From NCBI RefSeq assembly GCF_011038795.1, contig NZ_JAAKDU010000007.1:1-64000 (forward strand): a stretch of DNA of 64,000 bases. The letters run 5' to 3'. Below are positions 1 to 64,000 of the stretch, piece after piece (positions within the stretch are counted from its first letter, which is position 1; each line of letters opens with the position of its first letter). The position numbers were made by a program, and so were the translations under genes. The stretch is from Streptococcus tangpeifui (GTDB taxonomy: Bacteria; Bacillota; Bacilli; Lactobacillales; Streptococcaceae). A model generated the notes under the pieces. The model was not told the origin of the DNA. It did not search any database and saw only the letters and a list, made by a program, of their open reading frames with translations.

Positions 1-118
1 TACTCACCCGTTCGCAACTCCTCGTACTAGAGCAAGCTCCAGTACTCAGCGTTCTACTTGCATGTATTAGGCACGCCGCCAGCGTTCGTCCTGAGCCAGG
101 ATCAAACTCTCATCTAAT
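1..118 (-). rRNA. rrs: 16S ribosomal RNA, 5' end only
   Basis: The reverse complement carries the conserved 16S 5' region: AGAGTTTGATCCTGGCTCAG at about 91-110, followed by the universal stretch through CATGCAAGT. Only the first ~118 bases are in the window; the gene runs off the low-coordinate edge. The exact mature 5' end (about 118) is inferred from spacing to the AGAGTTTGATC box. It is transcribed in the same direction as most genes here. Confidence 0.97.
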
Positions 119-53498: not shown

Positions 53499-56400
53499 TT
53501 ATTCAGCAACTGGCGCTTGAGCTTCTTGAGCTTCCTCTTCACTTGGTCCTACCTCTTCTTCAATGATTTCAACTTCATTAACAGCCTGAGGTTCGATATT
53601 ACGGTAGCGAGCCATACCAGTACCAGCTGGAATGATCTTACCAATAATAACATTTTCCTTAAGACCGAGCAGATGGTCTTTCTTACCACGGATTGCTGCA
53701 TCGGTCAAGACACGAGTAGTTTCTTGGAAAGAGGCTGCTGATAGGAATGAATTGGTTTCCAGAGAAGCTTTAGTGATCCCCATAAGGACTGGACGGCTGG
53801 TTGCAGGAATACCGCCAGCGATGACGATATCCTTATTAGCATCTGTAAAGTCAGCAATATCCATGAGCGTACCTGGCAGAAGATCCGTATCACCGGGATC
53901 CATGACACGCACCTTACGCAGCATTTGGCGAACCATAACTTCGACGTGCTTGTCACCGATTTCTACCCCTTGGCTGCGGTAAACTTTTTGAACTTCTGCC
54001 AAGAGATAGGTTTCAACTGACAGGGTATCACGCACTTCCAGCAAATGTTTTGGCTGGATAGATCCTTCAGTTAAAGCAGCACCGCGGGAAATTTTATCCC
54101 CGACTTGAACCTTCATTCGAGCCGTAAATGGCACCACGTATTCACCTTTACCAGTTCTACCTTCAACGTAAACCTTCTTGGTACGAGTTGCCGCATCTTC
54201 CTCAATGTCAGTCACACGCCCTTTAACTTCTGTGATGACCGCTTCCCCTTTAGGATTGCGGGCTTCAAATATTTCTTGGATACGAGGCAAACCTTGAGTG
54301 ATGTCAGTATTTGAAGCAACACCACCGGTGTGGAAGGTCCGCATAGTCAACTGAGTACCAGGTTCACCAATGGATTGAGCAGCAACAGTACCAACAGCTT
54401 CCCCAACTTCAACCGCATCACCTGTTGCCAAGTTGATACCGTAGCAGTGGCGGCAGACCCCATGACGAGTCTTACAGGTGAAGACAGAGCGAATGGTGAC
54501 TTCTTCAACGCCAGCCTTGACAATTTCAGCTGCCATATTTTCGGTCAGCAAGGTATCAGGCTCAACCAAAACTTCCCCAGTTTCAGGGTGTTTAACACTC
54601 TTCTTGGTATAACGACCAACCAAGCGTTCCTGCAAGGTTTCAGTTACTTCCTTACCATCGGTAATAGCTGTGATGGTCAAACCACGATCGGTACCACAGT
54701 CGTCTTCGCGAATGATGACATCTTGAGCCACATCGACCAGACGACGAGTCAGATAACCTGAATCGGCGGTCTTGAGAGCTGTATCGGTCATACCCTTACG
54801 AGCACCGTGAGTAGAGAAGAACATTTCCAGTACGGACAGACCTTCACGGAAGTTAGACAAGATAGGCAATTCCATGATTTGTCCATTAGGAGCCGCCATC
54901 AAACCACGCATACCAGCCAATTGAGAGAAGTTAGAGATGTTCCCCCGAGCTCCTGAGTCCATCATCATAACGATAGGGTTCTTAGGATCTTGGTTAGCAA
55001 TCAGCGCTTCTTCCAATTCTTCCTTAGCTTCACGCCAAGTATTTGTAACAGCTGTGTAGCGATCATCGTCCGTCATCAAACCGCGACGGAAGGCCTTATT
55101 AATTTGTTCAACCTTACTGTGGGCAGCTTCGATAATTTCTTGTTTATTGTCAATAACTGGGATATCGGCGATACCAACTGTCAAACCAGACAGGGTTGAA
55201 TGATAGTAACCCAAGTCTTTCAAACGGTCAAGGAAGGCAGACGTTTCTGTCGTCCGCAAGCGTTTGAAGGTTTCAGCAATGATATTACCCAAGTGTTTCT
55301 TCTTGAATGGTTCATTGATTTCAAGTGCTTCAATAGCTGGCTTGATATCGCTACCTGGTTCCAAGAAATACTTATCAGGAGTCTTTTCAGTCAGATTGCT
55401 GTTAGTTGGTTCTTGCAGATATGGCAGTTCTGCTGGCATGATATCATTAAAGAGAATCTTACCAACAGTCGTAATCATAACCTTGCCCTTTTGACTTTCA
55501 GTCCAAGGTTTTTCTGGCATGCTGTCCGTTGCGATACCAACACGGGTATGCAAGTGAGCAAAACCATTGCGGTAAGCCATGATAGCTTCATCCCTGTCCT
55601 TGAAGACCATACCTTCGCCTTCACGGCCAGCATCTTCCATGGTCAGGTAGTAATTCCCCAAAACCATATCTTGAGATGGGGTAACGACTGGTTTACCATC
55701 TTTAGGGTTAAGGATGTGTTCGGCCGCCAACATCAAGAGACGAGCTTCTGCTTGAGCTTCTTCAGACAGAGGCACGTGGATAGCCATTTGGTCTCCATCA
55801 AAGTCGGCATTGTAGGCTTCACAAGCCAGCGGATGGAGGCGCAGAGCCTTACCATCAATCAGAACAGGCTCAAAGGCTTGGATACCAAGTCGGTGCAGGG
55901 TAGGTGCCCGGTTGAGGAGAACGGGGTGTTCCTTGATCACATCTTCCAAGATATCCCAAATCCGTTCATCACCGCGTTCAACCATACGCTTGGCAGCCTT
56001 AACATTACCAGCATATTCACGAGCAACAATTTCCTTCATGACAAAAGGTTTGAAAAGCTCGATAGCCATTTCACGCGGCACACCGCATTGATACATCTTG
56101 AGTGTTGGACCAACAGCGATAACGGAACGACCTGAAAAGTCAACCCGTTTACCCAGCAAGTTTTGACGGAAACGCCCTTGTTTACCTTTCAGCATGTGGC
56201 TGAGAGATTTAAGCGGACGACTGCCAGGTCCTGTAATTGGACGACCTCGCCGACCATTATCAATCAGAGCATCAACTGCTTCTTGCAGCATCCGTTTTTC
56301 ATTTTGCACGATAATACCTGGAGCGTTGAGTTCCAAGAGGCGAGCCAAACGGTTATTCCGGTTAATAACACGGCGGTAAAGGTCATTCAAGTCAGATGCC

Positions 56401-57152
56401 GCAAAACGACCACCATCCAATTGAACCATTGGGCGCAAATCAGGTGGAATAACTGGCAGGATGTTAAGCACCATCCATTCTGGCTTGTTGCCTGACTTTT
56501 GAAAGGCGTCAAGAACATCCAAGCGACGGATAGCCTTGATCCGTTTTTGACCTGAAGCAGTCTTCAATTCTTCCTTGAGTTCTGCAATTTCCGCTTCCAA
56601 GTCTACTTGTTTCAGAAGATCTTGAACGGCTTCCGCCCCCATCTTAGCAACGAACGAACCATAACCATATTCCTGCAGTTTTTCTCGATATTCACGCTCA
56701 GTCAAGATAGACTTGCGTTCCAGCGGTGTATCCTTAGGATCGATAACCACATAGGCTGCGAAATAAATAACTTCTTCCAAAGCTCGCGGACTCATATCCA
56801 AAGTCAAGCCCATGCGTGATGGGATCCCCTTGAAATACCAGATGTGAGAAACCGGAGCCTTCAATTCGATGTGACCCATGCGTTCGCGACGAACCTTGGC
56901 ACGAGTAACTTCAACCCCGCAGCGATCACAGACAATCCCTTTATAGCGGATCCGTTTATATTTACCACAGGCACACTCCCAATCCTTAGTAGGACCAAAG
57001 ATAACTTCATCGAAGAGCCCTTCGCGTTCAGGCTTGAGCGTGCGGTAGTTGATTGTTTCAGGTTTCTTAACTTCCCCGTAGGACCAAGAACGGACCTTAT
57101 TAGGAGAAGCTAAAGTGACTTGCATACTTTTAAAACGATTTACGTCAACCAC
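53499..57152 (-). CDS. rpoC: RNA polymerase beta' subunit
   Basis: 1217 residues. First zinc-binding cluster CACGKYKR...CDRCG (about 60-79), the catalytic NADFDGDQM motif (about 448-456) that holds the active-site Mg2+, and the second zinc region [13 protein letters not shown] near 890. C-terminal tail acidic. The start codon is GTG (57150-57152) after AAAGGT; family start ..[15 protein letters not shown]. It follows rpoB by 115 bases in the same operon and ends with a strong terminator. Confidence 0.98.
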
Positions 57153-57267: not shown

Positions 57268-60846
<3,579 letters not shown>

Positions 60847-60865
60847 GTTTCTATCTCCTTCATCG

Positions 60866-60915
60866 TAAGATACAAAGACTTTCTCAGCTCAATGCTGAGT
60901 TAGTCGAGGTCAATT
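60866..60915 (-). promoter_or_regulatory. rpoB leader with shared module
   Basis: Minus strand: AATTGACC (60908-60915), then a 10-bp two-part stem GACT-AA-CTCAGC/GCTGAG-AA-AGTC (60877-60905), then CTTTGTATCTTAC (60865-60877) whose GTATCTTA core ends 19 bases before the TTG start. Same order of elements as in the rpoE, dnaK and dnaJ leaders. Confidence 0.55.
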
Positions 60916-61009
60916 AACAGCTTATTCATCATCTGCGAGTTATTTTATGGATAATTTTTAGAATCTTTATATTTGCGTTACATTTATAAAAATCCCCAAA
61001 ATTAGGCAC

Positions 61010-61054
61010 AAAAAGAGCAGCTAAATCTGACTAGAAAAGTTTGATTTAACTGCT
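61010..61054 (-). terminator. Terminator-like hairpin inside the rpoB leader
   Basis: AGCAGCTAAATC (61016-61027) pairs with GATTTAACTGCT (61043-61054), 12 bp with one G-U in the minus RNA and a 15-base loop, followed by CTTTTT. It lies about 50-90 bases after the predicted rpoB transcription start and 164 bases before the gene. Confidence 0.75.
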
Positions 61055-61109
61055 GTATCGCTTGATTGGACAATATTTCAATCAAGTTAGACGACAAATA
61101 GTTGGTATT

Positions 61110-61138
61110 ATTATAACCAATTTAGCTAAAAATTGCAA
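61110..61138 (-). promoter_or_regulatory. rpoBC promoter
   Basis: Minus strand TTGCAA (61133-61138), 17 bases, TATAAT (61110-61115). Predicted start near 61103. Just downstream lies the hairpin CTTGATTG/CAATCAAG (61061-61086). Nothing else is identified in the remainder of the 660-base gap except the elements listed separately. Confidence 0.8.
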
Positions 61139-61374
61139 ATTTATTTTTACAGGTAAAGAGACTTAAAGCTAGAGATTTTAGTCTACTTTTTCACTCTATA
61201 GCCTAGTAACCCTGATGATACTAACTTCCTACTAAAAAACGGAACTTAGTCTGAGACGAAAATCACTAATTGTAGGTGTTTTTCTTATACTAAACACCTG
61301 TCCTAGAGCATTTAGAATTAGTTTGAAAGTTGCGATCTTGAATCGAGAGTAAAACATCAGTAAAGCATCAACAT

Positions 61375-61413
61375 ACAAAGCCCTCACTGGGAGTATACAC
61401 CTAATGAGGGCTT
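61375..61413 (-). terminator. Hairpin after the orphan gene, repeat-family member
   Basis: AAGCCCTCA (61378-61386) pairs perfectly with TGAGGGCTT (61405-61413). The loop holds TACACCTAAT. Minus strand continues TTTGTATG, a weak U tract. The element resembles 14925-14958. Confidence 0.6.
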
Positions 61414-61506
61414 CTGCTTGTTTTCATTGATTGTTTTGTGGGAAGACTAAGCCACCATGACTGGATATCCCCGTCTCTATTATGAAGCTTCGATCATCTC
61501 CATTCT

Positions 61507-61869
61507 TTACCACTTGAAAGCCCGCAAGTCCTGACGTATAGCCTCTATCTTATCAGCGTCTAGGCCATTTCGCCTTCGAGCGGCGTCATCCAGCTTCTGC
61601 AAATAAGCAATAAAGCTGTCCACCAGATGGTCATATTGATAGTTACTCAAATGCTTGAGCTGCTGACCGATGAACTGAGCAGCTTGGTCATATTCTTCAG
61701 CTTCAACCAAGTGGTCCAAGTAATCGTTACCGCTGACTTCTTGGCCTTCTTCGTTCTTCACTTTACCCAAGTCTAACTTGATATTTTCCAGCTTGAAAAC
61801 CTTATCCACCCCAGTCGAAGTTCGCCTGATCTGCCTGAGCAGGTCATCATTATTAAAAACTGTCGGCAT
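61507..61869 (-). CDS. Hypothetical acidic protein between pbp1b and rpoB
   Basis: 120 residues, not recognised. It is soluble, with no signal peptide and no membrane segment, mostly helical by composition (..YLDHLVEAEEYDQAAQFIGQQL.., then LVDSFIAYLQKLDDAARRRNG), ending RQDLRAFKW. It is well supported as a gene: GGAGGTGG ribosome site, clear promoter (61936-61964) and downstream hairpin. Sitting in its own transcription unit next to pbp1b, it may be a streptococcus-specific protein. Confidence 0.75.
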   Translation of the reverse strand: MPTVFNNDDLLRQIRRTSTGVDKVFKLENIKLDLGKVKNEEGQEVSGNDYLDHLVEAEEYDQAAQFIGQQLKHLSNYQYDHLVDSFIAYLQKLDDAARRRNGLDADKIEAIRQDLRAFKW

Positions 61870-61935
61870 AGAAAGCCACCTCCTATCTCCAAGGATTAAC
61901 TATCATTCCTGAATCGACAAAAATATTCTGTCTTT

Positions 61936-61964
61936 ATTATAAATGTTCCACCAAGTCCCGACAA
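61936..61964 (-). promoter_or_regulatory. Promoter of the orphan gene
   Basis: Minus strand TTGTCG (61959-61964), 17 bases, TATAAT (61936-61941), 67 bases before the ATG at 61869. Confidence 0.75.
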
Positions 61965-62103
61965 ATCTTTTTATTTTAGGATAATGAAGGAACCTATTCT
62001 TAAGGGAAGGGCTTATAAGGGCCAAGACCTTGACTTAAGTCTTTTAAAACCAGCATTTGCACTTACTAGATGCGCACATCCGCCAATTTAATCTGCCCTG
62101 CCC

Positions 62104-64000
62104 CTACTGACCACTAGCTGACTTCCAAGCAGCTGTCTTATCACTATCGCTGCCTCCGATCATAAAGTCATAAGTGGAATCGCCAGGTCCATCTTTAGCC
62201 CAGTTGCTGGTGGTAGTATCGCCATTCAAATCGGCCGTTTTACCATCATGAGAAACCGAAGCAGGCTTGAGTCCAGTTGACTTAAGAACCGTCGCTTTAA
62301 TAACACTGTCATCCAAAGCAAACTTTTGACCTGGACCAAAAACAGAAGCATCAGCTGAATTAATAGCATTGACCAAATTAGCCATGTACTGAGCGTTATT
62401 TTCATAGCCAGTATTTGAACTTAAGGGTGAGTTGTCATCATGGCCAGCCCAGCTCCCCAGAGTCACTGTTGGCGTTGCTAGCATGAGCCAGACATCGCTA
62501 TAATTATCAGTTGTTCCGGTCTTGCCAATCCAATCCGCATCCGACATGAGGCCAGAGTTAAGACCATTAAGATCATCTTTAAACTTGGTCGTCTTACCAG
62601 AGGAAATCGGACCACGAAGCAAGTCCGTCATAATGCTGGCAGTCGCCTTGCTGTAAACAGTCACCGGATTTTCTTGATGCTCATAGATAACTTTGCCCTT
62701 GCTATCCCTTATCGACTGAATTAGGTAGCCTTGTTGGTAGACACCACCGTTAGCCAATGTCTGATAAGCATTGGTCTGCTGCAGTACCGTTGTCTCAATA
62801 CCACCGCCTAAAGGCAAGCTTTCAATATCGTAGTTATCGATCTGATAGCCCATCTTGGTCATATACCCCTCAACATCGACTCCTTTTTGCCGCAGCATTT
62901 GATAAGTCCAATAAGCTGGAATATTCCAAGATACGTCCAGAGCTTCTTGAAGCGTAACCGCTCCTGTTCCTTCATCTGTCCCGTGCATAATTTTAGTTCC
63001 ACCTGAAAAGCTAGCTGGGTAGTTGGATAAGATTGAAGCCGATCCCATCAAGCCCTGATCAATAGCAATGCCATAGGCTAGAATTGGCTTAATACTGGAA
63101 CCAGGTGAGCGTTTAGTATCTAAGGCATGGTTATTTTGATTAGCCCCATAATTCCGACCTCCAACAAAGCCCAGAATAGCTCCAGTTTTATTATCCATCA
63201 GAACATTACCGACATCTACAGTCCCGCTATTTCCAGCATCTAAGCTGCTACCTGCACTTTGGACAGTCCCTTGCATAGCTTCATAAACCTTTTTATTGAC
63301 AGTCGTTTTAATGTGATAACCACCAGTTTGCAAGGCTTCAGCAGCTAATTGCTTATAGTTAGCCGCCGTTTTATCATTCTTCAAATCTAAGGCAGAAACA
63401 TTATCCCGTTGGATAAGATAATGATACATATCTTTCTGGGCTTCCTCCCAGACAGCATAGTAGAGATAATCGTGATTAACTGTGCTGGAATTCTCGCTTG
63501 CTTTAAAGTCTTTACTAATATCATAGGACTTATAGGCTCGATACTCTTTCTTAGTCAGATAGCCTGTTCGGTACATGTTATATAGAACGGTTTTCTGGCG
63601 AGAGAGACCATAAGCCAAATCTGCCTGAGTTTTCAGACTGCCATCTGCCGCATAAGGTGAATAAACAATAGGGCTCTGGGGCAAGCCAGCAATGTAGGCT
63701 GCCTGAGGAACTGTTAAATCTTTGGCTGACACGCCAAAGATACCTTGTGACGCCTCTTCGATTCCTGCAATATTCTCTCCTTTATTGTTGCGACCAAACG
63801 GCGAAACATTAAGATAAGAGGTCAGGATATCATCCTTGGTCATATAACGCTCTAAAGCTAGAGCATAAATGATTTCTCTAGCCTTCCGCTTAAAGGTAGG
63901 GTCATCACCAACCACCTGCTGCTTAATAACCTGCTGAGTCAAGGTTGACCCTCCACTAGTAGAACCAACACCTAAAACAGAAGAAACTAAAGCCCGAAAA
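62104..64000 (-). CDS. pbp1b: Penicillin-binding protein 1B (class A), 5' part missing
   Basis: Partial: the last 632 codons are in the window, and the N-terminus lies beyond the high edge. The glycosyltransferase (GT51) domain begins at the edge with VGSTSGGSTLTQQVIKQQ and contains YALALERYMTKDDIL. The transpeptidase domain has SxxK as SPGSSIKP near residue 290 of the visible part, SxN as SWN, and KTG as GKTGTT near 490. It polymerises and cross-links peptidoglycan at the membrane surface. The first in-frame ATG at 63942 is not the start. The C-terminus is Ser/Asp rich. Confidence 0.93.
   Translation of the reverse strand, partial: FRALVSSVLGVGSTSGGSTLTQQVIKQQVVGDDPTFKRKAREIIYALALERYMTKDDILTSYLNVSPFGRNNKGENIAGIEEASQGIFGVSAKDLTVPQAAYIAGLPQSPIVYSPYAADGSLKTQADLAYGLSRQKTVLYNMYRTGYLTKKEYRAYKSYDISKDFKASENSSTVNHDYLYYAVWEEAQKDMYHYLIQRDNVSALDLKNDKTAANYKQLAAEALQTGGYHIKTTVNKKVYEAMQGTVQSAGSSLDAGNSGTVDVGNVLMDNKTGAILGFVGGRNYGANQNNHALDTKRSPGSSIKPILAYGIAIDQGLMGSASILSNYPASFSGGTKIMHGTDEGTGAVTLQEALDVSWNIPAYWTYQMLRQKGVDVEGYMTKMGYQIDNYDIESLPLGGGIETTVLQQTNAYQTLANGGVYQQGYLIQSIRDSKGKVIYEHQENPVTVYSKATASIMTDLLRGPISSGKTTKFKDDLNGLNSGLMSDADWIGKTGTTDNYSDVWLMLATPTVTLGSWAGHDDNSPLSSNTGYENNAQYMANLVNAINSADASVFGPGQKFALDDSVIKATVLKSTGLKPASVSHDGKTADLNGDTTTSNWAKDGPGDSTYDFMIGGSDSDKTAAWKSASGQ

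Follow-up and report, generated by a model that had tools for sequence, protein, structure and literature searches.

Why should a terminator stand between the promoter of rpoB and rpoB itself? How much core RNA polymerase a cell holds is among its basic settings, and in Streptococcus tangpeifui the genes behind this enzyme appear to be preceded by a signal to stop. The window analyzed here is the whole stretch of 64,000 nucleotides at the start of contig NZ_JAAKDU010000007.1, and the features of the locus lie on its minus strand. A first-pass annotation of this DNA had left two readings side by side: either rpoBC is attenuated, or the short RNA made ahead of the gene is an independent small RNA and rpoB is served by a second promoter downstream.

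The gene rpoB (57268..60846, minus) is assigned by its relatives in protein searches and encodes 1192 aa from a TTG start. Downstream of it follows the ORF 53499..57152 (minus), which we take to be rpoC and which is presumed to share the rpoB transcript. Upstream of the rpoB promoter lie ORFs of 120 aa and 612 aa, the latter presumably penicillin-binding-protein-like. A hairpin just upstream of the promoter, AAGCCCTCA...TGAGGGCTTT (61413-61377, minus), has the look of a terminator that would close the preceding operon and so insulate the promoter of rpoB. At the left edge of the window, positions 1-117 (minus) hold a 16S rRNA gene truncated by the edge, of which the first 112 model positions are present.

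The promoter is of the sigma-A type (61138-61110, minus; TTGCAA-17-TATAAT), with the -35 element at 61138-61133, the -10 element at 61115-61110, a spacer of 17 nt and 10/12 matches to the consensus. Read directly on the minus strand, it bears out the consensus-like promoter proposed earlier for 61110-61138. Six promoter-like matches occur in 60500-62500 as against 4.6 +/- 2.0 in shuffled sequence, a count that by itself is not above chance, so the case for the promoter comes from its conserved place and not from the number of matches. By a simple rule of our own making, applied to 180 distinct leaders, a sigma-A match lies upstream of the loop of hairpin P1 (see below) in 90/106 Streptococcus and 73/74 other leaders, while shuffles give about 0.1; in 85 of the 90 Streptococcus leaders with a match, the -10 element ends 28-30 nt before this loop. 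The transcript would thus start at about 61103, some 7 nt after the -10 box. Near this expected start, the flank ATTTGTCGT (61099-61091, minus) is near-invariant in the alignment of Streptococcus leaders, which comprises 64 of 71 representatives.

What the transcript carries first is a known RNA. The first-pass annotation had treated the element as unnamed, a point that needs correcting: an Rfam search of the whole window returns RF01709, Lacto-rpoB, at 61099-61042 (minus) over the full model (1-58), with 68.3 bits against a gathering score of 40 and an E value of 5.7e-10. This is the sole Rfam match at E up to 1 within 60840-61510, and no riboswitch, T-box or ribosomal-protein leader family matches in that interval. 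The element lies in the 5' leader of rpoB on the same strand (P1 ends at 61061, rpoB starts at 60846), if the transcript starts where the promoter predicts. The copy in the window is a real, ordinary member of the family. No second copy was found in its own genome, where the next matches reach only E 0.25 and 0.45; these were rejected as copies and read as plain hairpins with a T-run. The RF01709 match extends to 61042, which falls within the 5' arm of the terminator described below or just beyond it, and thus the conserved 3' tail of the model in Streptococcus corresponds to the start of the terminator.

Lacto-rpoB is an orphan element described in 2010 by Weinberg et al., whose table rates it as certainly an RNA, probably cis-regulatory and probably not a riboswitch (PMC2864571). 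The accessible part of the main text of that paper draws no link to a terminator and reports no wider spread; its Additional Files do annotate predicted terminators. According to the accessible text of later surveys, the Enterococcus faecium copy is among the expressed 5'-UTR elements in Enterococcus RNA maps (PMC7724050), and promoter and terminator signals are given for Lacto-rpoB in at least one strain of group B Streptococcus (PMC6064168). A terminator at this element has hence been noticed once before, in S. agalactiae. A Term-seq paper on S. pneumoniae, as far as accessible, holds 162 early terminators in a table (PMC6296669), and the main text of a pneumococcal RNA-regulator paper (PMC10942264) contains no word beginning with 'rpo'. 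In the literature consulted, neither an account of attenuation at Lacto-rpoB nor a mechanism for it was found, and supplementary files may hold earlier terminator annotation. The additions made here are the link to a terminator across the order, the wider distribution and a WalR-like box.

The core of the element is the P1 hairpin, CTTGATTG/CAATCAAG (61086-61061, minus), with arms at 61086-61079 and 61068-61061, a covarying stem and the loop G-AAAUAUUGUC-C. Across 45 order-wide sequences, some of which had been kept by a stem rule that favors pairing in this very test, 139 double-change cells are found as against 48.5 +/- 5.6 after shuffling and at most 53 when the partner strand is slid. The covariation score amounts to 0.872 (shuffled, 0.225), and 89.8% of the cells pair (shuffled, 55.2%). 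The number of pairs with a change on both sides is non-discriminating, with 8 observed and 7.9 in shuffles, 437/500 of which are as high. On this changing stem the loop is near-invariant in sequences from eight families, its variants including GAUCUAUUGUCC, GAUAUAUUGUCC, GAAAUCUUGUCC and GCACUAUUAUCC, and the pair adjoining it is U-A, C-G or G-C. When the stem covaries and the loop stays near-invariant, a recognition site of the type bound by proteins is the best explanation. Mimicry of rRNA by the loop was rejected, as neither strand of a 5904-base rRNA locus holding a 23S gene contains a match to the 12-nt loop with two or fewer mismatches; this test is weak, and the partner may still be a ribosomal protein. 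We know of no partner protein for P1.

P1 is followed by the intrinsic terminator that gives rise to the question (61054-61010, minus), which is predicted to form a 12-bp stem with a 15-nt loop, followed by C and T5, at -16.9 kcal/mol. Its arms, AGCAGTTAAATC at 61054-61043 and GATTTAGCTGCT at 61027-61016, form 12 pairs including one U.G, and the T5 tract occupies 61014-61010. Here the first-pass annotation was accurate, both in having a hairpin followed by a 12-bp terminator with T5, at exact coordinates, and in leaving 164 bases up to the TTG start of rpoB at 60846. As judged from the letters and their folds, a predicted intrinsic terminator is therefore present after the promoter and before rpoB. 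A routine terminator scan reports nothing on the minus strand, since loops longer than 8 fall outside its limit. Folding of the 100-nt leader gives -27.5 kcal/mol as against -14.2 +/- 2.9 in 200 shuffles (z -4.7), and both P1 and the terminator are present in a 265-nt fold of the window leader (z -6.2); in that fold, which is of the window leader alone, the 5' flank finds its pairing partner a long way downstream, close to where the leader meets rpoB.

The terminator is conserved together with P1. When a hairpin of -8 kcal/mol or better that abuts a T-tract is counted (again a simple rule of our own), a terminator follows P1 in 117/117 distinct Streptococcus leaders, compared with 18.5% of 2340 shuffles and 7.7% of 117 downstream windows, and in 40/40 distinct other leaders, compared with 11% of 800 shuffles and 0/40 downstream windows; this first test covered 157 of 158 distinct leaders, one with an N being left out. 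A further 35/35 loci (13% of 700 shuffles) bring the figure to 192/192 hairpin loci tested, as against 11-19% of shuffles. A search for named rpoB genes kept 80 records of 233 relatives, all of them Streptococcus, and the pattern of loop, stem and T-tract is found in 80/80 of these, S. pneumoniae and S. agalactiae included. The stem sequences vary by family, reading GCAGTTAAATC in Streptococcus, GCAACGAAA in another genus of its family and CAAAAGTAGAA or ACAAAAGA elsewhere. In 14 stems, own arms pair at a mean of -8.4 kcal/mol and swapped arms at -4.2, and 4.9% of the swaps reach the own median, a difference that is in part built in, predicted hairpins having been the source of the arms. Within Streptococcus, the stem has 12 pairs in 64/64 leaders, of which ten never vary and two show wobble variants confined to the 3' side; as it hardly varies, its pairing is not proved by covariation there. 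With a U-tract of just T5, preceded by a C, termination in Streptococcus may be weak. In 69/75 non-Streptococcus loci the longest T-run is followed by G; under the same rule G comes next in 81/135 Streptococcus loci, partly because the rule picks a second T-run. A G in this position may favor pausing there.

The 5' arm AGCAGTTAAATC (61054-61043, minus) is invariant in the 64 aligned Streptococcus leaders. Terminators need no fixed sequence. A second use of this arm, by pairing or binding, would explain the frozen stem. One candidate is a two-state switch specific to Streptococcus, in which the 5' flank AUUUGUC would pair with GUUAAAU of the terminator 5' arm, enclose P1 and compete with the terminator. 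Of its seven pairs, six are formed in 63-64 of the 64 leaders; the seventh, a U-U, is replaced by A-U in two species, the 5' arm is invariant while the 3' arm has wobble variants, and the structure is formed in one truncated fold (L106). However, the pairs are nearly unvarying and so give no covariation test, the U-U mismatch is kept in 62/64 leaders, and the other truncated folds have no shared partner of the 5' arm; we consider such a switch quite unlikely. By eye, no antiterminator fold shared between families is seen in 23 representative truncated folds.

How widely this arrangement occurs depends on the model with which it is sought. RF01709 matches 147/147 genomes of the genus, 112/147 of the family and 103/295 of the order (26/74 genera); these and the following genome counts are model matches, adjacency to rpoB being checked singly at fetched loci only. 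The rpoB leader was inspected in 22 genomes devoid of a match, 18 from the order (drawn from 20 listed of 192 negatives) and four from the family (from 20 listed of 35). In 19 of the 22, rpoB is preceded by a hairpin with the Lacto-rpoB loop; 17 of these pass the stem rule, and two (L204 and L206) were added for an exact loop on a shorter, bulged stem. A retrained model (R1), built from 45 diverse hairpins out of 208 loci, matches 181/246 genomes of the order at E up to 0.001 and 51/64 genera, figures to be read with the differing order samples of the two models in mind and with many training sequences coming from the genomes searched. Both results imply that the Rfam model undercounts Lacto-rpoB. 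Two genomes carry two matches each to the retrained model, and one genome matched by RF01709 (G207) is missed by it. In a class-wide sample the retrained model matches 23/250 genomes, 22 inside the order; the one weak hit outside (G608, E 7.7e-4) lies at the end of a long transporter-like ORF and was taken as chance.

The three negatives among the inspected genomes all belong to one family, f7, which also accounts for 12/20 genomes among the non-matches listed for the retrained model. P1 is absent in 3/3 f7 leaders looked at. By eye, a hairpin of another kind, GTGGTTTTC...GAAATCCGC, seems to take its place in the rpoB leaders of this family, with TTTCTTTTT after it, and is perhaps a different attenuator.

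At the loci tested, the gene downstream is the same. A first test placed rpoB downstream on the same strand in 179/189 loci, nine more followed once longer stretches were used (gaps of 470-957 nt), and the tenth remaining locus (L179) followed after its motif had been relocated. At least these nine Streptococcus genomes have a loop-rpoB distance of 470-957 nt, and no ORF of 60 codons that begins with ATG lies in their gaps. With a terminator present at all the hairpin loci tested, and with many copies missed by Rfam, Lacto-rpoB becomes the subject of a concrete attenuator hypothesis.

The stretch between terminator and rpoB bears on the second of the two earlier readings, an independent, trans-acting small RNA of about 94 nt with rpoB served by its own promoter downstream of the terminator. 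A promoter followed by a terminator would yield such an RNA. Second sigma-A promoters in this interval are found in 21/106 Streptococcus leaders (0.20, shuffles 0.18) and in 12/74 others (0.16, shuffles 0.16) and are thus not enriched. The interval has a conserved feature of another kind. After the terminator, Streptococcus leaders share the block TGTAAC-N5-TATAAA-GATTC-TAAAAATT (60982-60953, minus), and at its place other families show a direct repeat of the WalR/VicR type, for which the consensus is given as TGTWAH-N5-TGTWAH in the accessible text of PMC4168254. The exact repeat occurs in 23/74 distinct non-Streptococcus leaders as against 0.1% of shuffles; with a spacer length other than 5 the repeat is found 0-4 times, and none of the 106 Streptococcus leaders has the exact form. 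Relaxed forms, counted with no shuffle control, occur in 47/74 non-Streptococcus leaders and, as TGTNAY-N5-NTTAA, in all 106 Streptococcus leaders. The repeat may be bound as DNA by a response regulator, or it may belong to an RNA structure, and it could link the WalRK system to polymerase expression. An activator-dependent promoter is therefore possible, which would suit the small RNA, but no consistent -10 element follows the repeat by eye. Since rpoB lies downstream at the loci tested and the own genome has no second copy better than E 0.25, we hold the small RNA to be very improbable. Of the two earlier readings, attenuation of rpoBC has gained from the conserved hairpin and terminator before rpoB, and the small RNA with a second promoter has lost for want of promoter enrichment.

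Two further candidates within the leader were set aside. A third RNA hairpin after the terminator, seen by eye, is absent from the consensus fold of the 64 leaders and is not claimed. A leader-peptide attenuator was rejected: an ORF of 6-60 codons with a Shine-Dalgarno sequence and a start is present in just 32/180 leaders, so that no leader peptide is conserved, and the terminator-loop lengths are spread over all three frames.

Promoter, P1 and terminator signal follow one another in a conserved order, and the recurrence of hairpin and terminator ahead of rpoB, in most of the families of lactic acid bacteria that were examined, suggests that a brake on RNA polymerase synthesis has been conserved. 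From its sequence, the element is probably a cis-acting transcription attenuator of rpoBC of one kind or another. Transcription would start about 7 nt after the -10 box and produce P1 and then the terminator hairpin with its short U-tract. By default, a fraction of the polymerases would stop at about 61010, releasing a leader of about 94 nt, and the remainder would read through into rpoBC. A factor, probably a protein, would bind GAAAUAUUGUCC, the near-invariant loop of 12 nt, on its emergence from the polymerase and change termination. Because P1 does not overlap with the terminator, a loop-binding factor is the likeliest form of control.

The missing overlap, the lack of a shared antiterminator and the conservation of the terminator, for which any fixed attenuator would account, are also consistent with a constitutive throttle, in which the terminator removes a constant share of rpoBC output and P1 serves structure or stability at the 5' end, responding to no signal. 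A 12-nt loop kept near-invariant over eight families on a covarying stem looks like a recognition site instead, and a mere throttle thus seems rather unlikely to us. We infer that termination occurs, is regulated and involves a protein on the loop; that the regulation of this attenuator runs through the loop is somewhat better than an even bet. In many pathogens and food bacteria, the loop partner could then turn out to be a novel RNA-binding regulator that acts on an essential gene. What the partner would report is a guess. As the controlled gene is rpoB, the polymerase or a polymerase-bound factor is an attractive reader, and an attenuator that senses the polymerase level may be entertained as a rather unlikely possibility. 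Lacto-rpoB would in that speculative case be the sensing half of an autogenous polymerase attenuator in most families of the Lactobacillales, with the polymerase or a bound factor reading GAAAUAUUGUCC on the emerging RNA and deciding at the neighboring terminator on the making of rpoBC, and a switch for polymerase homeostasis would lie inside the polymerase's own leader RNA.

Among known systems, the closest is Lacto-rpoB (RF01709) itself, with which the element in the window shares the hairpin and loop, the place before rpoB and the bacterial order. In the RAT of LicT/BglG, the ANTAR system, the dfn element of LoaP and the put sites of HK022, a short hairpin near a terminator is read by a protein or by the polymerase. 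P1 resembles them in being a short hairpin beside a terminator; unlike the RAT, it does not overlap with the terminator, and unlike the two hairpins of ANTAR, it is a single one. A terminator before rpoB also recalls the rplJL-rpoBC attenuator of Escherichia coli, for which Barry 1980 is cited and which limits the synthesis of beta and beta'. The E. coli attenuator lies inside a ribosomal-protein operon, whereas in the window a promoter belonging to rpoB itself immediately precedes the proposed attenuator, and the rplL-rpoB operon position is not found in the window, where the two ORFs named above lie upstream. Read-through at the E. coli attenuator is induced by rifampicin, as reported in the accessible text of PMC6181997. 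In contrast to that attenuator, the one proposed for rpoB in the window is accompanied by a conserved hairpin.
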